Source: an uncultured Flammeovirgaceae bacterium (lineage in GTDB: Bacteria > Bacteroidota > Bacteroidia > Cytophagales > Cyclobacteriaceae). Taken from it: DNA of 10,405 nt. Location: assembly GCA_946480685.1 (NCBI GenBank), contig CAMLLI010000070.1, forward strand, positions 1 through 10,405, read 5' to 3'. The notes beneath the pieces are model-generated. The model was given only the letters and a program-made list of their open reading frames with translations. It was not told where the DNA came from and did not search any database. Below are positions 1,343-10,135 of this stretch, piece after piece; the first letter of the stretch is position 1; every line of letters starts with the position of its first letter. The position numbers and the translations under genes were made by a program.

Positions 1343-2419
1343 TTAAAGCGCCTGAAGATTCTTCACGACTTCTCTCCATTCTTCTCTTTCAGGAATACCG
1401 GGTTTTCGCAAGCCGAAGAATTGTGCGATCATGTTCTTTCCTTTGTCGAAAAGTTCAACAGAAGTCACCAGCCCCTCCGTTGTAGGTTTCTGTACGACCC
1501 ATGCGGTGTGTACTACATCCATGCGCATGTGCATATTGAAATCCGGATCAAGTACATTCAACCATTGTTCTGGTCCGGCATGCCCGCGTTCGAGTACGCG
1601 TATCGTTCTTACTTTGCCTTGGTGGATCTGAAGATTACCACGATTCCCGGCGAAGATCATGATCGGTAATTTGGTAGCCGATGCGCTGTCCAGTATCTGC
1701 CTGGGTGTAAGCTTGGCATCTACCTGGTAGGTATATTTACCGGCTGCAAGTTCCAGGGCATGATAGCGATGTACTTTGTGTCTGCGCAGCATCCCGAAGA
1801 AGTCATGTGTATCTTTCAACTCACTCCACTCCTGCAGAAAAGCTTCGCGATTCTCCGGACCATTTAATTCTTCCGTTGCATACGGCTCAACTTCCAGTTC
1901 TGCACTTTGGTCAGCAGCGCGAAATGTCTCCACCAGTTTTTCGTAAGCGGCTTCATCACTTTTCTCCTGCAGGTATATTTTGGTTACAGCATCACCTGCT
2001 TTATCAAATACCTGTATGCTCTTGAGTGTGCGATCTGATTTCTCTTCGGTAACAGCAAATGCAAAACTCCATGCACTGAAGAATACACGTGTCTCCACCG
2101 GACCGATCACCGTTGCTATAGCACGTGCGCCTTCTCCTTTCACATCCACTTCCTGAAAGGGACCTTTATGTTCAAGTATGCAGGCATCATTGCGTGTAAG
2201 CGACATCACCTTGCCAAGCGTTGTGAAACTCTTCAGCAATTCAGTCCACGGGCCTTGCAGACGTACCACGCCCTCTCCGATCCTTGTGGCCAGCAGTTCC
2301 GCTTCACTTGCTCCGAGGTCACGGGCAGCTTCGCGGATTCTGATACCAGGCTTGGCTTGTTGAATGCCTCTCCAGGCTTCGCGTAAGGATGACGATTTAC
2401 TTTCTACTATCGTACTCAT
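1343..2419 (-). CDS. hmuS: HmuS/HemS/ChuS-family heme-degrading or heme-trafficking protein
   Basis: This 358-residue cytoplasmic protein has the usual length and two-repeat layout of HemS/ChuS/PhuS, with a half of about 40-165 and a half of about 190-355. Conserved family features are DTHDFFGMLRRHKVHR at 203-218, whose His205 is the probable equivalent of the heme-ligating His of HemS, ChuS and PhuS, and the MRMDVVHTAWVV stretch in the second half. Family members bind heme delivered by the HmuUV importer. They either open the ring oxidatively (ChuS) or pass heme on to an oxygenase (PhuS); the sequence does not tell which. The gene follows hmuV after 46 AT-rich bases and precedes the receptor by 3 bases, so cotranscription is expected. 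No separate promoter of the TAnnTTTG type was seen in the 46-bp gap. Confidence 0.9.
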   Translation of the reverse strand: MSTIVESKSSSLREAWRGIQQAKPGIRIREAARDLGASEAELLATRIGEGVVRLQGPWTELLKSFTTLGKVMSLTRNDACILEHKGPFQEVDVKGEGARAIATVIGPVETRVFFSAWSFAFAVTEEKSDRTLKSIQVFDKAGDAVTKIYLQEKSDEAAYEKLVETFRAADQSAELEVEPYATEELNGPENREAFLQEWSELKDTHDFFGMLRRHKVHRYHALELAAGKYTYQVDAKLTPRQILDSASATKLPIMIFAGNRGNLQIHQGKVRTIRVLERGHAGPEQWLNVLDPDFNMHMRMDVVHTAWVVQKPTTEGLVTSVELFDKGKNMIAQFFGLRKPGIPEREEWREVVKNLQAL

Positions 2420-2465
2420 TTTATAGATGTTTATAAGTATATTTATAGGTATATAGTTTCGTTGA

Positions 2466-3275
2466 TTATCGCTTGGAGCTGATGCTCATGGGCTGCTGCA
2501 CTGTTCGCTCCGGAATTATATAAGGACAGTTATTACAGGGATCGTGATATACATTAACCCGGCAACAGAATGTTTCTTCAATGTTTGATTTGGTAAATAC
2601 TTGCTGCGCTTCCCCTGACGCTACAATTTTACCACCGCGTAAAAAGTATAAATGATCGGCAAACTGAACAGCCTGGTTCAAATCATGTATGATGGCCATT
2701 ACACCAATGTTACGCTCGCATACCTGCTTGGCCAGACTAAAGATGAGTTGCTGCTGCGCTATATCGAGACTGCTGGTAGGTTCATCCAGCAATATATAGC
2801 GCGGGTATACGGTTTCTTCCCATACCTGCGCCAGTACACGGGCCAGCTGAACCCGTTGCTTCTCTCCTCCTGACAATGTCAGGTAATTGCGTTCACGGAA
2901 ATGATCGATGCCGGTTAGCGCCATCACTTCATCGAGTATATGCGCATTTTCTTTCTGTGTAGCTTTATGACCGTGTCTGCCGAGCATCACGATTTGCTCA
3001 ACAGTAAAAGTAAATTGCACTGTGGTAGTCTGCGGCAATACCGCGCGGACCCAGGCCAATTCTTTAGGACTATAGTTGCGTGCAGCCTTACCGTTGATCG
3101 TTACCTCACCGTGATACTCCGTATGCTCGTGTGCCATTACCTTGAGCAGTGTACTTTTACCCGCTCCATTCGGTCCTACAATGGCCGTAAATGCACCGGG
3201 CTCCAGGTTCAGATTGATATCGCGGAGTATAATTTTATCGCGCACGCGAAAGGATATATTACTCGCCTGGTACAT
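2466..3275 (-). CDS. hmuV: Heme ABC transporter ATP-binding protein HmuV
   Basis: The 269-residue ATPase has all ABC motifs. Walker A GPNGAGKST is at 34-42, the Q-loop Gln at 82, the signature LSGGEKQR at 134-141, Walker B YILLDEP at 160-166 with D-loop SSLD following, and the H-loop His at 197. It would energise heme import through HmuU at the inner membrane. Its ATG shares one base with the stop codon of hmuU (TAATG), implying translational coupling. The C-terminal tail contains a cysteine cluster (CC at 237-238 and CNNC at 247-250) in the stretch where HmuV proteins usually carry a His-rich or hydrophobic tail. The family call (iron-chelate/heme importer ATPase) is secure; heme as substrate follows from hmuT, hmuS and the receptor. 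Confidence 0.95.
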   Translation of the reverse strand: MYQASNISFRVRDKIILRDINLNLEPGAFTAIVGPNGAGKSTLLKVMAHEHTEYHGEVTINGKAARNYSPKELAWVRAVLPQTTTVQFTFTVEQIVMLGRHGHKATQKENAHILDEVMALTGIDHFRERNYLTLSGGEKQRVQLARVLAQVWEETVYPRYILLDEPTSSLDIAQQQLIFSLAKQVCERNIGVMAIIHDLNQAVQFADHLYFLRGGKIVASGEAQQVFTKSNIEETFCCRVNVYHDPCNNCPYIIPERTVQQPMSISSKR

Positions 3276-4339
3276 TACAATTCGTTTTTACGCTTTGCAT
3301 TCATTAATAATCCGATGAAGAAGGGGGCACCGATCAGCGCGGTAACAACACCAATGGGAAGTTCTGACGGACTTACCACCGTACGCGCCACTATATCTGA
3401 CAGTACAAGCAGCAACGCTCCGCCTATAACAGAACCAGGCAATACAAGTCTGTTATCGGCATAAAATGATACGCGTATAACATGCGGAACAATCAGCCCT
3501 ATAAATCCAATCATGCCCGACAACGACACACTTACACCTACGGCTAACGCGGAAAGGAAAATCACCACGCGCTTGGTATACTCTACATCCACACCTACGT
3601 GATACGCTTCTGCTTCACCGAGCGCGAGTGCATTCAGTGTGGGTGAAAAAAACATCAATCCTACTGAAGACAGAATGAGTAAAGGTGACGCAATCATGAG
3701 TTTATCCCACGTTGCGCCACCCAGATCGCCCAAGGTCCAGAAAGTGAAAGTTCTTAGTTGATTTTCGTCAGCATAAAATATAGCGAGCCCTATAATGGCA
3801 CCGGCCAATGCGTTGATCGCAACACCGGTTAATACCAGCACCGCTATATTTGTACGACCGGTTTGATTACTCATTCGCAATACTGTAAATGTCGCGGTTA
3901 CTCCGCCGGCAAATGCCAGTACGGGTAAGAGTATACTATACATCCAGCCATCAGCCTGTATAACCAAACCACCAAATACAATCATTACAACTACGGCTGC
4001 AGCGGAACCACCGGATACACCAATCAAACTAGGTTCTACCAATGGGTTTCTGAACAGGCCCTGCAACGCAGCGCCACTTACACCCAGTGCAGCACCGATC
4101 AATATAGTCATGACAATGCGCGGTATACGTATAGTTGACAGTACAACTTCATGCATACTGTCCACCGCTATATTTTGAAACAGGCCTGCCTTCTGCAGTA
4201 TAATGATGGCTACATCTGCAACCGGAACAGAGACAGCACCAATGGTTAACGAAAGCAATATGGCAAGTATCAAACCGATGCCCAGTGCCGTCAGAATTAT
4301 AGCAGTACGATACTCCCGTATGGAAAGCGCCAGGTTCAT
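3275..4339 (-). CDS. hmuU: Heme ABC transporter permease HmuU (FecCD family)
   Basis: The 354-residue, very hydrophobic protein carries FecCD/BtuC permease motifs: RIPR at 71-74, GLFRNPLVEPSLIGVSGGSA at 94-113, GLIVPHVIR at 281-289 (the region contacting the ATPase), and ELPIGVVTALIGAPFF at 326-341. Length and motif order match the usual permeases, which have about ten membrane helices and work as a homodimer with two ATPases and one binding protein. The gene starts 5 bases after the hmuT stop and overlaps hmuV by one base, so the three genes form one transport unit. No truncation or frameshift is seen. Confidence 0.95.
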   Translation of the reverse strand: MNLALSIREYRTAIILTALGIGLILAILLSLTIGAVSVPVADVAIIILQKAGLFQNIAVDSMHEVVLSTIRIPRIVMTILIGAALGVSGAALQGLFRNPLVEPSLIGVSGGSAAAVVVMIVFGGLVIQADGWMYSILLPVLAFAGGVTATFTVLRMSNQTGRTNIAVLVLTGVAINALAGAIIGLAIFYADENQLRTFTFWTLGDLGGATWDKLMIASPLLILSSVGLMFFSPTLNALALGEAEAYHVGVDVEYTKRVVIFLSALAVGVSVSLSGMIGFIGLIVPHVIRVSFYADNRLVLPGSVIGGALLLVLSDIVARTVVSPSELPIGVVTALIGAPFFIGLLMNAKRKNEL

Positions 4340-4344
4340 GTTGA

Positions 4345-5190
4345 TTATTTCGCGCGGAGTTCAGGATGGATCAACACAACAAGCTCTTTTACAGCCTCAC
4401 CAAAACGAGGACCAAAATTGGTAAGCTTCAAACTTTCAATGGAAACAATCTGCTTTTTCTTACCGGCAGTAGTCTGTGCTACACCCGGAATTTTTAAAGC
4501 GCCATCTATACCTCCGAGACTTTCAAGTCCCATCGACACCATTAACAGGTAATCCGGATTGGCAGCGATCAACGCTTCCGTGTTCAGCGGCTTGTATCCT
4601 TCTACATCACTCACGGCACTGGTAGCACCGACATACGAAAGAATTTCTCCGAATGTATTTTTACCGGCAACACTGATGGTAGATGTACCTCTGTTATATA
4701 CACTCAATACTTTCGGAACGGAAGTCGTTTTCTTGAGCATGGCGTTTGCTTCCGCAAGTTCGCCTTCTATTTTAGCGATCAGTTTTTTTCCCTCGGCATC
4801 ACGATTCAACGCAGTGGCTATCTGCGCTATGAACTTCTTGGTATCGTTGAAAGTATATTTGCGATCAATGATCAACAGCTTTACGCCACTGGCAGTAAGT
4901 TGCTGCAGTACGGCATCTTCCACATAATCCTTCTCTGCTATAACAAGGGTTGGCTTCAGACTAAGAATTCCCTCGGCATTTATACCACCGCGATAACCAA
5001 TGGAAGGCAATTGCTGAATGTGTGCCGGATATAAGCTTGTTCGATCAGACGCTATAATTTTATCGCAGTCACCCAATGCACATACTGTCTCAGTCAGTGC
5101 ACTGCCTGCTGTTATGATGCGTTGGGCATATACTATATTACTATAAGAAAGTATACATATAAATAAGAGAAGAACAGGAACTCGTTTCAT
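4345..5190 (-). CDS. hmuT: Periplasmic heme-binding protein HmuT
   Basis: The 281-residue protein begins with a signal peptide (basic n-region MKR, hydrophobic core 5-15, cleavage near YAQ at 21-23). It continues as a class III (BtuF/PhuT-type) substrate-binding protein. The segment SLYPAHIQQLPSIGYRGG (52-69) followed by AEGILSLKPTLV is characteristic of heme-binding ShuT/PhuT/HmuT proteins. Tyr66 in the GYR motif is the likely axial heme ligand, with Tyr54 as an alternative. There is no lipobox cysteine at the cleavage site, so a soluble periplasmic protein is expected. It is the first gene of the operon. The ATG at 5190 lies just downstream of a strong promoter/operator, giving a short leader of roughly 17 bases. 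Confidence 0.92.
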   Translation of the reverse strand: MKRVPVLLLFICILSYSNIVYAQRIITAGSALTETVCALGDCDKIIASDRTSLYPAHIQQLPSIGYRGGINAEGILSLKPTLVIAEKDYVEDAVLQQLTASGVKLLIIDRKYTFNDTKKFIAQIATALNRDAEGKKLIAKIEGELAEANAMLKKTTSVPKVLSVYNRGTSTISVAGKNTFGEILSYVGATSAVSDVEGYKPLNTEALIAANPDYLLMVSMGLESLGGIDGALKIPGVAQTTAGKKKQIVSIESLKLTNFGPRFGEAVKELVVLIHPELRAK

Positions 5191-6403: not shown

Positions 6404-6961
6404 ATGAAAAAACAGTCGTATACTCCTGCCCGGTCAATCACCACAGAGATTGAAGCGTTATTGAACCAGCAGATCGTGATGGAAGGTAAATCTTCTGCAG
6501 CGTATCTCTCCATGGCATCATGGTGTGATACCCAGGGGTTTGAAATTTCTGCCGAATTCCTGTACAAACACTCTGAAGAAGAGCGTCAGCACATGCTGAA
6601 ACTTTTCCGCTATGTAAATGCTGCCGGTGGTCATGCACTCCAGCCTGAGATCTCGGGTATAAAACACTCTTTCAATTCACTTCGTGAAGTTTTTGAAGCT
6701 GTACTTCATCACGAGATCGAAGTAACCAAATCGATCAACAACATCGTTGATCAGTGTTTACAGATTAAAGACTTCGCTACGTTCAACTTCCTGCAGTGGT
6801 ATGTTAACGAGCAACGTGAAGAAGAAACGCTCGCACGCAGAGCTGTTGAGATCTTCGATATCATCGGTGAAGAAGGTGTTGGTCTGTGGATGATCGACCA
6901 GGAAGTTGGCAAACTCGCTGCATACGCTGCACGTGTTTCCGGCAAGATGAGTGGAGAATAA
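6404..6961 (+). CDS. ftn: Ferritin (FtnA-type iron-storage protein)
   Basis: The 185-residue protein matches bacterial non-heme ferritin with about ten extra N-terminal residues relative to E. coli FtnA. The ferroxidase centre is complete: Glu27, Glu60 and His63 (HSEEERQHM, 56-64) for site A; Glu104, Gln137 and Glu140 (FLQWYVNEQREEE, 129-141) for site B; the conserved Tyr34 is also present. It would oxidise Fe(II) and store the mineral in a 24-subunit cytoplasmic shell. A heme-binding bacterioferritin is less likely on sequence. The gene is divergent from the response regulator and sits beside the heme uptake operon, which fits storage of iron released from heme. The ATG at 6404 is supported by the start of the family alignment shortly after it. 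Confidence 0.95.
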   Translation: MKKQSYTPARSITTEIEALLNQQIVMEGKSSAAYLSMASWCDTQGFEISAEFLYKHSEEERQHMLKLFRYVNAAGGHALQPEISGIKHSFNSLREVFEAVLHHEIEVTKSINNIVDQCLQIKDFATFNFLQWYVNEQREEETLARRAVEIFDIIGEEGVGLWMIDQEVGKLAAYAARVSGKMSGE

Positions 6962-7022: not shown

Positions 7023-7050
7023 GCTGCTGGTTTCTGGCTACTGGTTTCTG
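7023..7050. repeat. Degenerate 7-bp tandem repeat, four units
   Basis: Heptamers GCTGCTG, GTTTCTG, GCTACTG, GTTTCTG follow each other directly after the ferritin terminator. They share the G-Y-T-N-CTG pattern of the array at 5344-5371. Confidence 0.6.
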
Positions 7051-7073
7051 GACAACGGCCCGCTGGGTGGGAT

Positions 7074-7143
7074 GTTCGTTGTTAATCGTTAATCGTTACA
7101 AGTTAATCGTTAATTGCTAATTATTGTCGGTTATTGGTGGTTG
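7074..7143. repeat. Degenerate 7-bp tandem repeat, about ten units
   Basis: In strict 7-base phase the units read GTTCGTT, GTTAATC (twice), GTTACAA, GTTAATC, GTTAATT, GCTAATT, ATTGTCG, GTTATTG, GTGGTTG. The unit start GTT is shared with the two G-Y-T arrays, but the tail has drifted from CTG to AATC. No open frame uses it. Confidence 0.65.
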
Positions 7144-7347: not shown

Positions 7348-8322
7348 ATGAAAATTACACGATATTCATTTGTTGTCGCTATGGTGGTGGCTTCTGCATG
7401 TTCATCGGATGATGATGACTCTGCACCGGCTGCAGTTGACTATAAAGAAGAGATGCGCAAGCTGGTAATTAACATCAGCGCCAAAGCTAAAAGTACTTCG
7501 GCTGGTTTCGCGATCATCCCACAGAATGGAATTGAACTCGTTACACAAAATGGTGAAGAGGATGGCGCCCTTCACACGGCCTATCTCGATGCAATTGACG
7601 CTCACGGTCAGGAAGACTTCCTATACGGCTACGACCAGGATGATGTAGCGACTCCTTCCAGTGCTACAAGTTACCTGAAAGCTTTTCTCGACCGGTCACA
7701 CAACAACGGAAACACGATTCTCATTACAGACTATTGTTCTACCGACAGCAAGAAGTCTGCTTCGTATACTACCAACAATAGTTATGGATACATATCGTAT
7801 GCGGCTGAACATCGTGAGCTCGATATTATTCCGGCAAGCGAACCATATCTGGCTCATAACGGTAATGTCAGTTCGTTAGCCGATGCCAAAAACTTTCTCT
7901 ACTTGCTCAACCCGGATAACTATACTTCGCGCGCTGACTTTTTACAGGCGTTGAAAAACACGCGATACGATGTCCTGATCATTGACTTGTTCTTTCACGA
8001 TGGCACTTCCTTTACTGCTGACGAAATCACTCAATTGAAAACGAAGAACGGTGGCGGCACACGAAAAGTAGTTGCGTATATGTCGATTGGCGAAGCAGAA
8101 GACTATCGCTACTATTGGCAAAGTGCCTGGAGCAACACCAAGCCCTCTTGGATGGACGCAGAGAATCCCGACTGGCCCGGAAACTATAAAGTAAAATATT
8201 GGGAAGCAGACTGGCAGAACATCATATATAAGAACAGCGACTCTTATCTGAACAAAATCCTCACTGCCGGATTCGATGGTGTATACCTCGACATTATTGA
8301 TGCGTTTGAGTATTACGAATAA
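7348..8322 (+). CDS. Surface lipoprotein, TM1410/MJ1477-type (GH114-like) putative glycoside hydrolase, apparently circularly permuted
   Basis: The 324-residue protein starts with a lipoprotein signal (lipobox ASAC, Cys18) followed by SSDDDD (19-24), the kind of acidic tag that sends Bacteroidota lipoproteins to the cell surface. The body matches the TM1410/MJ1477 TIM-barrel family, related to GH114 endo-alpha-1,4-polygalactosaminidase. Matching motifs are FAIIPQNGIEL (54-64), ILITDYC (124-130), NFLYLLNP (182-189), VLIIDLFFHDG (209-219), AYMSIGEAEDYRYYW (243-257), ENPDWPGNYKVKYW (272-285) and GVYLDIIDAFEYYE (311-324). Asp213, Glu249, Glu251, Asp315 and Asp318 are candidate active-site acids. 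In the family as I know it, the IIDLFF-to-DAFEYYE half comes first; here it comes last, after the PQNG half. Sugar-chain hydrolysis, perhaps of a galactosamine-containing polymer, is inferred, not shown. No partner gene adjoins it. Confidence 0.85.
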   Translation: MKITRYSFVVAMVVASACSSDDDDSAPAAVDYKEEMRKLVINISAKAKSTSAGFAIIPQNGIELVTQNGEEDGALHTAYLDAIDAHGQEDFLYGYDQDDVATPSSATSYLKAFLDRSHNNGNTILITDYCSTDSKKSASYTTNNSYGYISYAAEHRELDIIPASEPYLAHNGNVSSLADAKNFLYLLNPDNYTSRADFLQALKNTRYDVLIIDLFFHDGTSFTADEITQLKTKNGGGTRKVVAYMSIGEAEDYRYYWQSAWSNTKPSWMDAENPDWPGNYKVKYWEADWQNIIYKNSDSYLNKILTAGFDGVYLDIIDAFEYYE

Positions 8323-8404: not shown

Positions 8405-10135
8405 TCAACTCCCAAATATAAAATTATACCCCACCGTAACCGTAACATCGTTCGTATTTGCTTCGCTGGTGCTTCGCCATTGATTAAGTACGTTCAGGTT
8501 AAAAGTATGCTTACGTTGTACTTTATATACCGCGTGGCATCGCACATTGAAGACATGATTGTCCCATTCGGTTGCTGTGCGGCTGGCGTTATAGGACAGA
8601 TTAGCTCCGGTGGTAATTCGCTTTTGAAATATACTGGCGCTTATACTGGCGATGGGTCCTAACGTAATAAAGTCATCGCGACCGATTGTATTATAGGACA
8701 CGTTAAATCCGGCTGAGAAATTTCGTCCTGCCGTCATCCGCGATAAAGTATATAAGACCGATGCATTGTAGAATTGAGACAGGTTCCCGTTTCGTACGAC
8801 ACCACCCTGCTCATCCGCTGTCTCCTGGAAACCGAGATCAACACTGATGCCTTTCATCTCGTCATCCGTCTGAGAAAACATATAGCTTGCTGATGCCGTT
8901 GCGTTCTGCGACACTTGCGTATAATCCAGCGTATCGAGATTCCGGAAATTGTCCAATCGGTTTATATTCAGAAACTGCGGACGGATACGCATAAAGGTCT
9001 GAAAGTTTGAATAGGTGAATGCAGACGTGAGTTTATCAGAAGGAGTATACGATACATTTACGGATCCTATAAATCGGGTTGATGACCCCGACTTTGCATT
9101 ATCAAGATTGTCGCGCTGAAAACCCATGTTCATCGCGAGTTGAACCTTACTCTTGAACAGTGGTTGCGCTGCATTTACCGTTATATTTTCCAAATCGTTA
9201 TTGAGGTAATAAGCTCCGAGCGTTCTGTAACCGGGATCAATGCGCTCGTAGCCAACACCGAGTATTGTGCTGGTAAATGTATACTGCAGTGATGATTTGA
9301 TGGCGTGAAAATAACCGGTTGATTCCTTATTATTGAGCATGCGTCCGAAGAGGTTATTGCTCTCGGCATGCTCTGCACGCACATCTTCCGTTACGGCACT
9401 GGCAGCATACTCTACCGCTATATCCATGTGCTGCCATAGGCGTGTGCCGGCATTTACACTAAGTACCGTGTTGGCGATCGGGTATATCTGCAAACTATCA
9501 GGCTTGTTCTGAATCGAGTTCACATCATCCCACGCGTGAAATGCAATCATGCCCAGGCGATAATTATTCTTTTGATATTCGATCTTGCTCCCCCACCCCA
9601 TGCGCTCATACGCAGCAGGCGTTATGCGATTGGCAGTGTCATATTCAACAGCCTTTTGCAAGCGTCCATATATACCACTTACTTTTAGTCCGCTATCCTT
9701 CGGCTCAACATCAACACCGGCTCCGGTAAACAAATAACCATTCAGCGTATAGGGAGAATACGTTGCTGCTATATTTCCGATATGGGATGTTACCGATTTA
9801 TAGGACGGATGTATACTGAAACGATTCGGTGGCACCGGGTAAGAATAATTGCTGCCAAAACTTGTGAGCGTAAATGAAAACGGCAGGTTCACCAATCCAT
9901 AGAGATTCAGGTTCATACTACCGTTCACAAAATATGAAAAGGGATCGCGACCGTATCCTCCATTTCCGTTATAATATATACCATTGGCGGACAAAGCACC
10001 ATTGAGTTTGAACGGCTTGCCTTTGCCAAACTGATCACGCAGGTTGTCGAGCCGAATGGACTGCCCATACGACATTGATCCTATTGTGAGTATAAAAAGA
10101 ACTAACAGGCAACGGTACATGTAGAGAGGATTCAT
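8405..10135 (-). CDS. Outer-membrane beta-barrel protein of unknown function
   Basis: The 576-residue protein has a signal peptide (hydrophobic core about 9-20, cleavage near SYG-Q at 22-25). After it come many alternating amphipathic strands rich in Tyr, Asn, Ser and Thr, ending in VTVTVGYNFIFGS with an aromatic residue near the C-terminus, as in outer-membrane barrels. No plug domain, TonB box or carboxypeptidase-regulatory domain is visible, so it is not a TonB-dependent receptor. Notable segments are the Gly/Tyr/Asn-rich ANGIYYNGNGGYGRDPFSYF (50-69) and LPFSFTLTSFGSNYSYPVPP. The start at 10135 is supported by an ATGA overlap with the upstream gene's stop. The pair may form a surface complex of an exported protein and a barrel. 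I do not recognise a named family; a transport, anchoring or secretion role is possible. Confidence 0.8.
   Translation of the reverse strand: MNPLYMYRCLLVLFILTIGSMSYGQSIRLDNLRDQFGKGKPFKLNGALSANGIYYNGNGGYGRDPFSYFVNGSMNLNLYGLVNLPFSFTLTSFGSNYSYPVPPNRFSIHPSYKSVTSHIGNIAATYSPYTLNGYLFTGAGVDVEPKDSGLKVSGIYGRLQKAVEYDTANRITPAAYERMGWGSKIEYQKNNYRLGMIAFHAWDDVNSIQNKPDSLQIYPIANTVLSVNAGTRLWQHMDIAVEYAASAVTEDVRAEHAESNNLFGRMLNNKESTGYFHAIKSSLQYTFTSTILGVGYERIDPGYRTLGAYYLNNDLENITVNAAQPLFKSKVQLAMNMGFQRDNLDNAKSGSSTRFIGSVNVSYTPSDKLTSAFTYSNFQTFMRIRPQFLNINRLDNFRNLDTLDYTQVSQNATASASYMFSQTDDEMKGISVDLGFQETADEQGGVVRNGNLSQFYNASVLYTLSRMTAGRNFSAGFNVSYNTIGRDDFITLGPIASISASIFQKRITTGANLSYNASRTATEWDNHVFNVRCHAVYKVQRKHTFNLNVLNQWRSTSEANTNDVTVTVGYNFIFGS

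Follow-up and report, generated by a model that had tools for sequence, protein, structure and literature searches.

The 10,405-nucleotide stretch of DNA analyzed here (the window; contig CAMLLI010000070.1 of assembly GCA_946480685.1, from an uncultured Flammeovirgaceae bacterium) encodes a 324-residue protein that is almost certainly, judging from its sequence and from structure models, a circular permutation of the glycoside hydrolase (GH) family GH191/TM1410-type (beta/alpha)8 barrel, with the old ends joined and the new ends in the b4-a4 loop. The half order is a family trait and not a peculiarity of one odd gene; the permutation is genuine, natural and family-wide, in an enzyme of a known kind, and it looks old and probably arose once. 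By its sequence the enzyme is probably a surface endo-alpha-1,4-galactosaminidase for Pel-like polymers. Permutation, origin and function taken together make up the explanation that we consider best, and we hold it with considerable confidence.

The first-pass annotation, made from the letters alone, had proposed a permuted TM1410-type barrel, and the motifs it quoted are present in the order it gave within the open reading frame (ORF). When the whole protein is scanned against the NCBIfam profile TIGR01370 (MJ1477/TM1410), residues 197-323 match profile positions 55-175 of 315, and residues 1-175 scanned alone yield a match of residues 33-160 to positions 186-311. The whole-protein score, 164.1 bits, is below the 181.25 cut-off, a threshold that is blind to order: a permuted protein (L061) passes it at 189.7 and a canonical one (L093) fails it at 168.2. 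Pfam PF03537 (Glyco_hydro_114) is matched with 64.8 bits, above the gathering cut-off of 27, the best stretch covering positions 17-119 of 231. In a PDB sequence search, residues 178-321 align with 33-161 of Env-GH191 (9ep5) and residues 30-160 with its residues 173-290 (31.2 bits); TM1410 (2aam) is matched strongly by residues 202-323 and with 1.4 bits by the other half. Pairing the two halves in swapped order with those of the canonical protein of Cereibacter (L091) gives scores of 332 and 85, for which 500 shuffles each gave means of 32.8 (maximum 67) and 29.0 (maximum 62), and the C-terminal half is 42% identical to its Cereibacter counterpart. The limits drawn beforehand (31-162, a linker at 162-178, and 178-324) fall within a few residues of these profile and PDB match ranges.

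The structure models agree with this order. The AlphaFold2 model of the whole protein (predicted local distance difference test, pLDDT, 89.7) has eight strands, and its C-terminal part superposes on residues 27-165 of 2aam. A separate model of the N-terminal half matches residues 174-312 of 2aam, 342-463 of 9ep5 and 175-299 of the PelA hydrolase 5tcb; its structure ranking is headed, above other barrels, by C-terminal halves from three GH191 entries and from one further entry (folds missing from the match lists were not counted as evidence). The two models thus fit the two halves of 2aam, as a GH191/TM1410-type barrel should, and the linear order b1-b8 of the solved GH191 members is replaced by b5-b8 and then b1-b4. 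Because of this strand order, we file the protein as a circularly permuted relative and not as a plain GH191 member. The barrel would run b5-b6-b7-b8-b1-b2-b3-b4, with a short linker between the old ends that probably replaces helix a8, and the new ends would lie, by barrel geometry, on the catalytic face; between b8 (149-153) and b1 (183-186) the model has no helix of at least four residues. Compared with the Cereibacter sequence, the junctions are clean. At the new ends, the window protein terminates in DIIDAFEYYE and its mature form starts with AAVDYKEEM, and the Cereibacter b4 strand reads DIIDAFEFWEETAPRSGIDYRQEM; the old ends, HRELDIIPA (old C-terminus) and VSSLADAKNFLYLL (old N-terminus), are about 10 residues apart.

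A colinear reading was rejected, and neither of the observations that the first-pass annotation had named as fatal to its claim was made: no colinear full-length profile match was seen, and the solved GH191 structures have the opposite half order. In addition, colinear half pairings with the Cereibacter protein score 39 and 26, which is noise level. It is extremely improbable that this is an ordinary unpermuted triosephosphate isomerase (TIM) barrel in which internal symmetry produces the half matches as an artefact, since the register is set by sequence and not by fold alone (the C-half identity and the colinear noise just given), the catalytic residues and the PQNG motif occupy their GH191 places, and the N-half model ranks GH191 C-terminal halves above other barrels. 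A one-off artefact, frameshift or misassembly was rejected because 240 homologs among the matches listed share the swapped order.

Half order was called from the order of half-profile matches, AB denoting the canonical and BA the permuted form. The first homology search scored 6,484 matches, and the swapped order is present in 120 of 120 among the matches listed, as it is in all 120 relatives listed for a Cetobacterium protein, whose named members are fusobacterial (Fusobacterium, Cetobacterium, Streptobacillus and Fusobacteriaceae). A motif pattern had missed 10 of the latter 120 rows; the half-profiles assigned them to the permuted form. The canonical order holds throughout the 120 relatives listed for canonical proteins: 119 are plain AB, the remaining AB protein has its first half split, and none is permuted. 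TIGR01370 scans of genome samples, each of which includes one or two seeds that entered it as carriers of the permuted gene, recovered this gene in 20 of 296 genomes from the phylum of a Flavobacterium, 23 of 149 from the group of a Spirochaetes-titled genome, 8 of 118 from the family of the window's closest reached relative, 2 of 78 Cloacimonadota-titled and 6 of 82 KSB1-titled genomes. Canonical matches above the cut-off occur in 1, 2, 0, 1 and 13 genomes of these samples, respectively; lower-scoring matches, partial or in canonical order, are frequent as well (23 genomes in the Flavobacterium-phylum sample), and five TIGR01370 matches were left unclassed (G190, G217 and G265 in the Flavobacterium-phylum sample, G312 and G327 in the Spirochaetes-titled one). 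The group names are titles of seed records, some of them metagenome-assembled genomes (MAGs) that may be misbinned. On these counts, the permuted form is the commoner GH191-type form in the Bacteroidota (20 versus 1) and Spirochaetota-type (23 versus 2) samples, and the KSB1-type sample shows the opposite (6 versus 13); one KSB1-titled genome, G708, holds a permuted gene and a canonical match over the cut-off together (L147, L148). Relatives from no fewer than two bacterial phyla share the permuted form, and further phyla probably do too.

Many permuted members are still named cysteinyl-tRNA synthetase in one source, and reference profiles register the permuted enzyme as two half-matches. A tblastn scan of 50,697 phage records gave no match at E 1e-5 (viral_contigs lay outside that scan); 12 plasmid records matched, three of them over most of the query, all fusobacterial. 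One locus (L061 6894-8882, genome G012), on a MAG contig titled Mycobacterium sp. for which misbinning is possible, encodes a 663-residue protein with immunoglobulin/cadherin-like repeats before the permuted enzyme domain.

In a 59-row tree, the permuted proteins form one clade (97/98). Its input was 58 of the 480 classified rows after clustering, without the listed P0001-P0120 and one duplicate locus, and L091 was put in by hand; L091 and L092 had no classified ORF in the half-order survey, where longer spurious ORFs of their GC-rich DNA probably took the place of the real ones. The only odd row, P0337 (AAB), has a single A half that an insertion splits in two, and it was excluded from the trees. 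The 38 permuted rows of an 83-row tree are also one clade (100/98), present in 100% of 200 bootstraps, and so are the permuted rows of a tree of half A (100/98). The simplest reading, of which we are strongly persuaded, is a single ancestral event followed by descent and transfer; that event would have founded the whole permuted clade. A number of points weigh against it. The permuted group needs two changes in the half-B tree and is set apart by a single branch in 74% of 200 bootstraps, and L091, L116 and L094 are long there; the bootstrap is unsettled in the half-A, half-B and 83-row trees; and the canonical sister is unsure, being Cereibacter in the 59-row tree (90/84) and of unresolved placement in the 83-row tree. 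The first-pass annotation had called this a rare rearrangement, which is borne out for the number of events and is wrong for the number of genes.

Circular permutations usually arise by tandem duplication with loss, and this is likely the route taken here: a canonical gene would have been tandemly duplicated and its outer halves then lost. No duplicated intermediates (AB-AB or B-A-B) occur among the classified ORFs of the half-order survey and the 83-row tree set, which counts against this route. That a cut and paste or a recombination slip put the 3' half in front, with no tandem duplication, is an improbable alternative. It gains from the lack of intermediates among the classified ORFs; however, intermediates of an event of such apparent age would be lost, and in Deinococcus aquaticus (L092) adjacent genes are annotated as such enzymes, the first of the pair without a profile match. 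These are two overlapping tandem genes (1937-3747), the first annotated as a polygalactosaminidase and the second a strong canonical TIGR01370 match. We think it very unlikely that the halves came from different sources, by fusion of half-barrels and not by permutation of one gene. The half-B tree, lacking a firm permuted clade, would allow this; however, the half-A and combined trees give one clade, each half is of GH191 type and every part occurs a single time, the old ends meet via a short linker, and the mature permuted protein starts with the DY-x-x-EM motif located after the b4 loop in Cereibacter. We found no description of a permutation in this family in the literature searched, where "polygalactosaminidase" combined with "circular permutation" matched no papers; Naumoff and Stepuschenko, who reportedly studied the evolution of this enzyme family in 2011, may hold prior notice. 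The string "permut" occurs 0 times in the main text of PMC12054363.

Coordinates in the window of the permuted enzyme gene and its parts
Feature	Position	Strand	Basis
Coding sequence, circularly permuted GH191/TM1410-type glycoside hydrolase, 324 aa	7348..8322	+	ORF (ATG at 7348, stop ends at 8322, 324 codons), profile and PDB sequence matches
Putative lipoprotein signal peptide, residues 1-18, ending in lipobox ASA-C	7348..7401	+	sequence; model pLDDT <50 at residues 1-27
C-S-S-D-D-D-D, resembling the Bacteroidota lipoprotein export signal (surface display)	7399..7419	+	sequence; SDDDD/SDDFE consensus (available text of PMC5080379)
Residues 31-160, usual second barrel half (a4, b5-b8), here N-terminal	7438..7827	+	
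PQNG motif, end of strand b5	7519..7530	+	Q59 in 326/327 and N60 in 327/327 permuted proteins; both in 121/121 canonical
Glu89, putative general acid/base (= Env-GH191 Glu391, TmGH191 Glu225)	7612..7614	+	PDB sequence alignments and available text of PMC12054363
Linker, residues 161-177, old C-terminus to old N-terminus, probably at helix a8 site	7828..7878	+	model
Residues 178-324, usual first barrel half (b1-b4), here C-terminal	7879..8319	+	
b3 insertion, strands 249-251, 269-272 and 279-282, loop Trp276	8092..8214	+	model, conservation; insertion described in available text of PMC12054363
Asp315, putative nucleophile, end of b4, nine residues before C-terminus	8290..8292	+	= TmGH191 Asp156, Env-GH191 Asp323

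The catalytic apparatus of the family appears to be retained. GH191 was proposed in 2025 from TmGH191 and Env-GH191, with Asp156/Glu225 and Asp323/Glu391 as the respective putative catalytic pairs (PMC12054363, available text). Asp315 and Glu89 match this pair by alignment, the Glu by way of the Env-GH191 stretch (31 bits), since that of TmGH191 is weak. Among 458 rows kept after dropping duplicates and rows of 220 residues or fewer, Glu89 is invariant, being present in all 327 permuted and all 121 canonical proteins. Asp315 is likewise present in every canonical protein and in 326 of the 327 permuted ones, the last having a gap there, and Trp276 is kept in 326 of 327 permuted and 119 of 121 canonical proteins. 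The insertion that marks GH191, three strands following b3 and an aromatic residue at the tip of the loop, is present as model strands and W276. Of 332 unique permuted proteins, 331 have 8-31 residues after the nucleophile, nine being the commonest number (130 proteins), and the other one lacks the Asp motif; in canonical proteins the median is 143 (n=115). On these conserved residues and the biochemistry of the family, we moderately favor an endo-acting retaining hydrolase of alpha-1,4-linked galactosamine or N-acetylgalactosamine polymers of the Pel kind, in which Asp315 would be the nucleophile, Glu89 the acid/base, and Trp276 part of a loop closing over the substrate.

Gene context points in the same direction. 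In Cetobacterium, the permuted gene lies within a same-strand string of genes with pelF and pelG. In Cellulophaga (L042), it is followed directly by a gene with DUF3492 and glycosyltransferase family 4 (GT4) domains (PelF-like), a 534-residue gene and a canonical GH114/Spherulin4-like gene; G145 and G149 also have the permuted gene directly upstream of pelF. The PelF domain PF11997 is present in 18 of 20 genomes with the permuted gene versus 4 of 276 without it in the Flavobacterium-phylum sample (p 4.8e-23), and in 7 of 23 versus 4 of 126 in the Spirochaetes-titled one (p 1.9e-4; a weak match in G457, below cut-off, was left uncounted), p-values that overstate the evidence because the genomes are related to each other. 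Besides this relatedness, several results count against the association: in the family of the window's relative it is 1 of 8 versus 0 of 110 (p 0.07); just 2 of the 18 pairs from the Flavobacterium-phylum sample lie side by side; and PF11997 was found in 3 of 15 seed carrier genomes and not in the other 12, among them G001, the closest genome reached, whose protein is 89% identical to the window's. The substrates are therefore probably Pel-like polymers, self-made or foreign according to the host. In genomes with a pelF operon, the enzyme would probably trim the cell's own polymer, and in the window's lineage, with no pelF found in the nearest reached genome, it would more probably attack the polymers of others; we give this division of roles about an even chance.

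We know of no permuted member for which activity has been shown, and this too argues for caution about the substrate. A permuted enzyme acting on something other than galactosamine polymers, such as algal or host glycans, is the less likely option, though one with real support: TmGH191 was inactive on fungal galactosaminogalactan in published assays (PMC12054363, available text) and, in Zobellia, a gene of the GH114 family responds to agar (PMC5613140, available text), both of which tell against the Pel assignment, and PF11997 was not found in many carriers. However, the catalytic pair and the loop Trp are retained, the linkage to pelF is both statistical and positional, and Env-GH191, the only one of the two characterized members for which it was demonstrated, cleaves GalN-rich (galactosamine-rich) Pel (PMC12054363, available text).

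Several PelF-type gene groups (L042 at 9109-15061, L104-L111, L115 and L121) hold a canonical-order GH114/Spherulin4-like paralog, and the 534- and 659-residue members of the L042 group have no Pfam match. A second protein, mostly of about 400 residues and with split matches to PF11997, lies near PelF in 20 of 22 PF11997 genomes. In Cereibacter (L091 6028-7485), the canonical enzyme is fused to RTX calcium-binding repeats and lies near pelF and pelG.

The window protein is probably a lipoprotein displayed on the cell surface: it has a lipobox followed by an acidic run (ASA-C-SSDDDD), as do Bacteroidota surface lipoproteins, for which SDDDD and SDDFE are export signals (PMC5080379, available text). 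A lipobox-like start is present in 104 of 116 unique Bacteroidota-type matches among the matches listed, 97 of these with acidic residues after it, and, by pattern, in 23 of 120 listed fusobacterial-type permuted proteins. These counts refine the first-pass annotation, which placed the lipobox on the new N-terminus: it is not tied to the permutation. That the permutation was adaptive, bringing the termini round from the back of the barrel to its catalytic side, is doubtful. If true, the membrane anchor or a fused partner would be on the active-site side, the strand bearing the nucleophile would be left as a free C-terminus whose last residue, a Glu, is mostly conserved, and the enzyme would act at or near the cell surface, for example on polymer leaving a Pel-type exporter, with open/closed behavior unlike that of canonical GH191.

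Clustering of the flanking ORFs of 93 loci and the window revealed no widely shared neighbor, the largest non-enzyme cluster comprising six loci. Convergent with the enzyme gene is one for a 576-residue protein (8405-10135, minus strand) without a Pfam match; it also adjoins the enzyme in L001, a MAG titled Flammeovirgaceae, with 95% identity, and the other window neighbors had no match to L001 among the matches listed. The named organism for enzyme matches of at least 80% identity is, among the matches listed, Ohtaekwangia. A haem uptake set is encoded at 1343-5190 on the minus strand (HemS/ChuX-type protein, ABC ATPase, FecCD permease and periplasmic binding protein), and similar haem genes stand beside the permuted enzyme in L023, perhaps by chance; other neighbors are a response regulator and a ferritin (6404-6961). 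Between the ferritin and the enzyme, positions 7023-7119 hold two copies of a 14-base unit and then about five GTTAATC, and this repeat region includes an 18-base direct repeat.

Among known systems, the nearest are TmGH191 (TM1410; 2aam, 9eux, 9euz) and Env-GH191 (9ep5), which share the barrel fold, the Asp/Glu pair and the b3 insertion with its loop Trp; sequence similarity extends over both halves for Env-GH191 and is strong over one half for TM1410. They differ in that the halves are swapped in the permuted protein and the nucleophile is near its C-terminus. Both halves match TIGR01370, although the whole-protein score of 164.1 bits is below the 181.25 cut-off. The GH166 PelA hydrolase (5tcb) and the GH114 enzyme FsGH114 (9ep6) are also among the closest known systems. 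The GH114/Spherulin4-like paralog of Bacteroidota pelF operons (e.g., L042 12261-13082) has PF03537 in common with the permuted enzyme but has the canonical order and its own clade in the 59-row tree (10 rows, 100/99); a weak canonical-order match is present in 17 of the 20 permuted genomes of the Flavobacterium-phylum sample, plus G145 by BLAST. The permuted proteins widen GH191 beyond its two structurally studied members, provide many new candidate Pel-degrading enzymes, and, with their catalytic nucleophile some nine residues before the C-terminus, amount to a natural experiment in how barrels fold. A precedent is found in the GH70 glucansucrases, which are naturally permuted (beta/alpha)8 barrels relative to GH13; they belong to an unrelated family, and their cut site differs from that of the permuted GH191-type enzyme.
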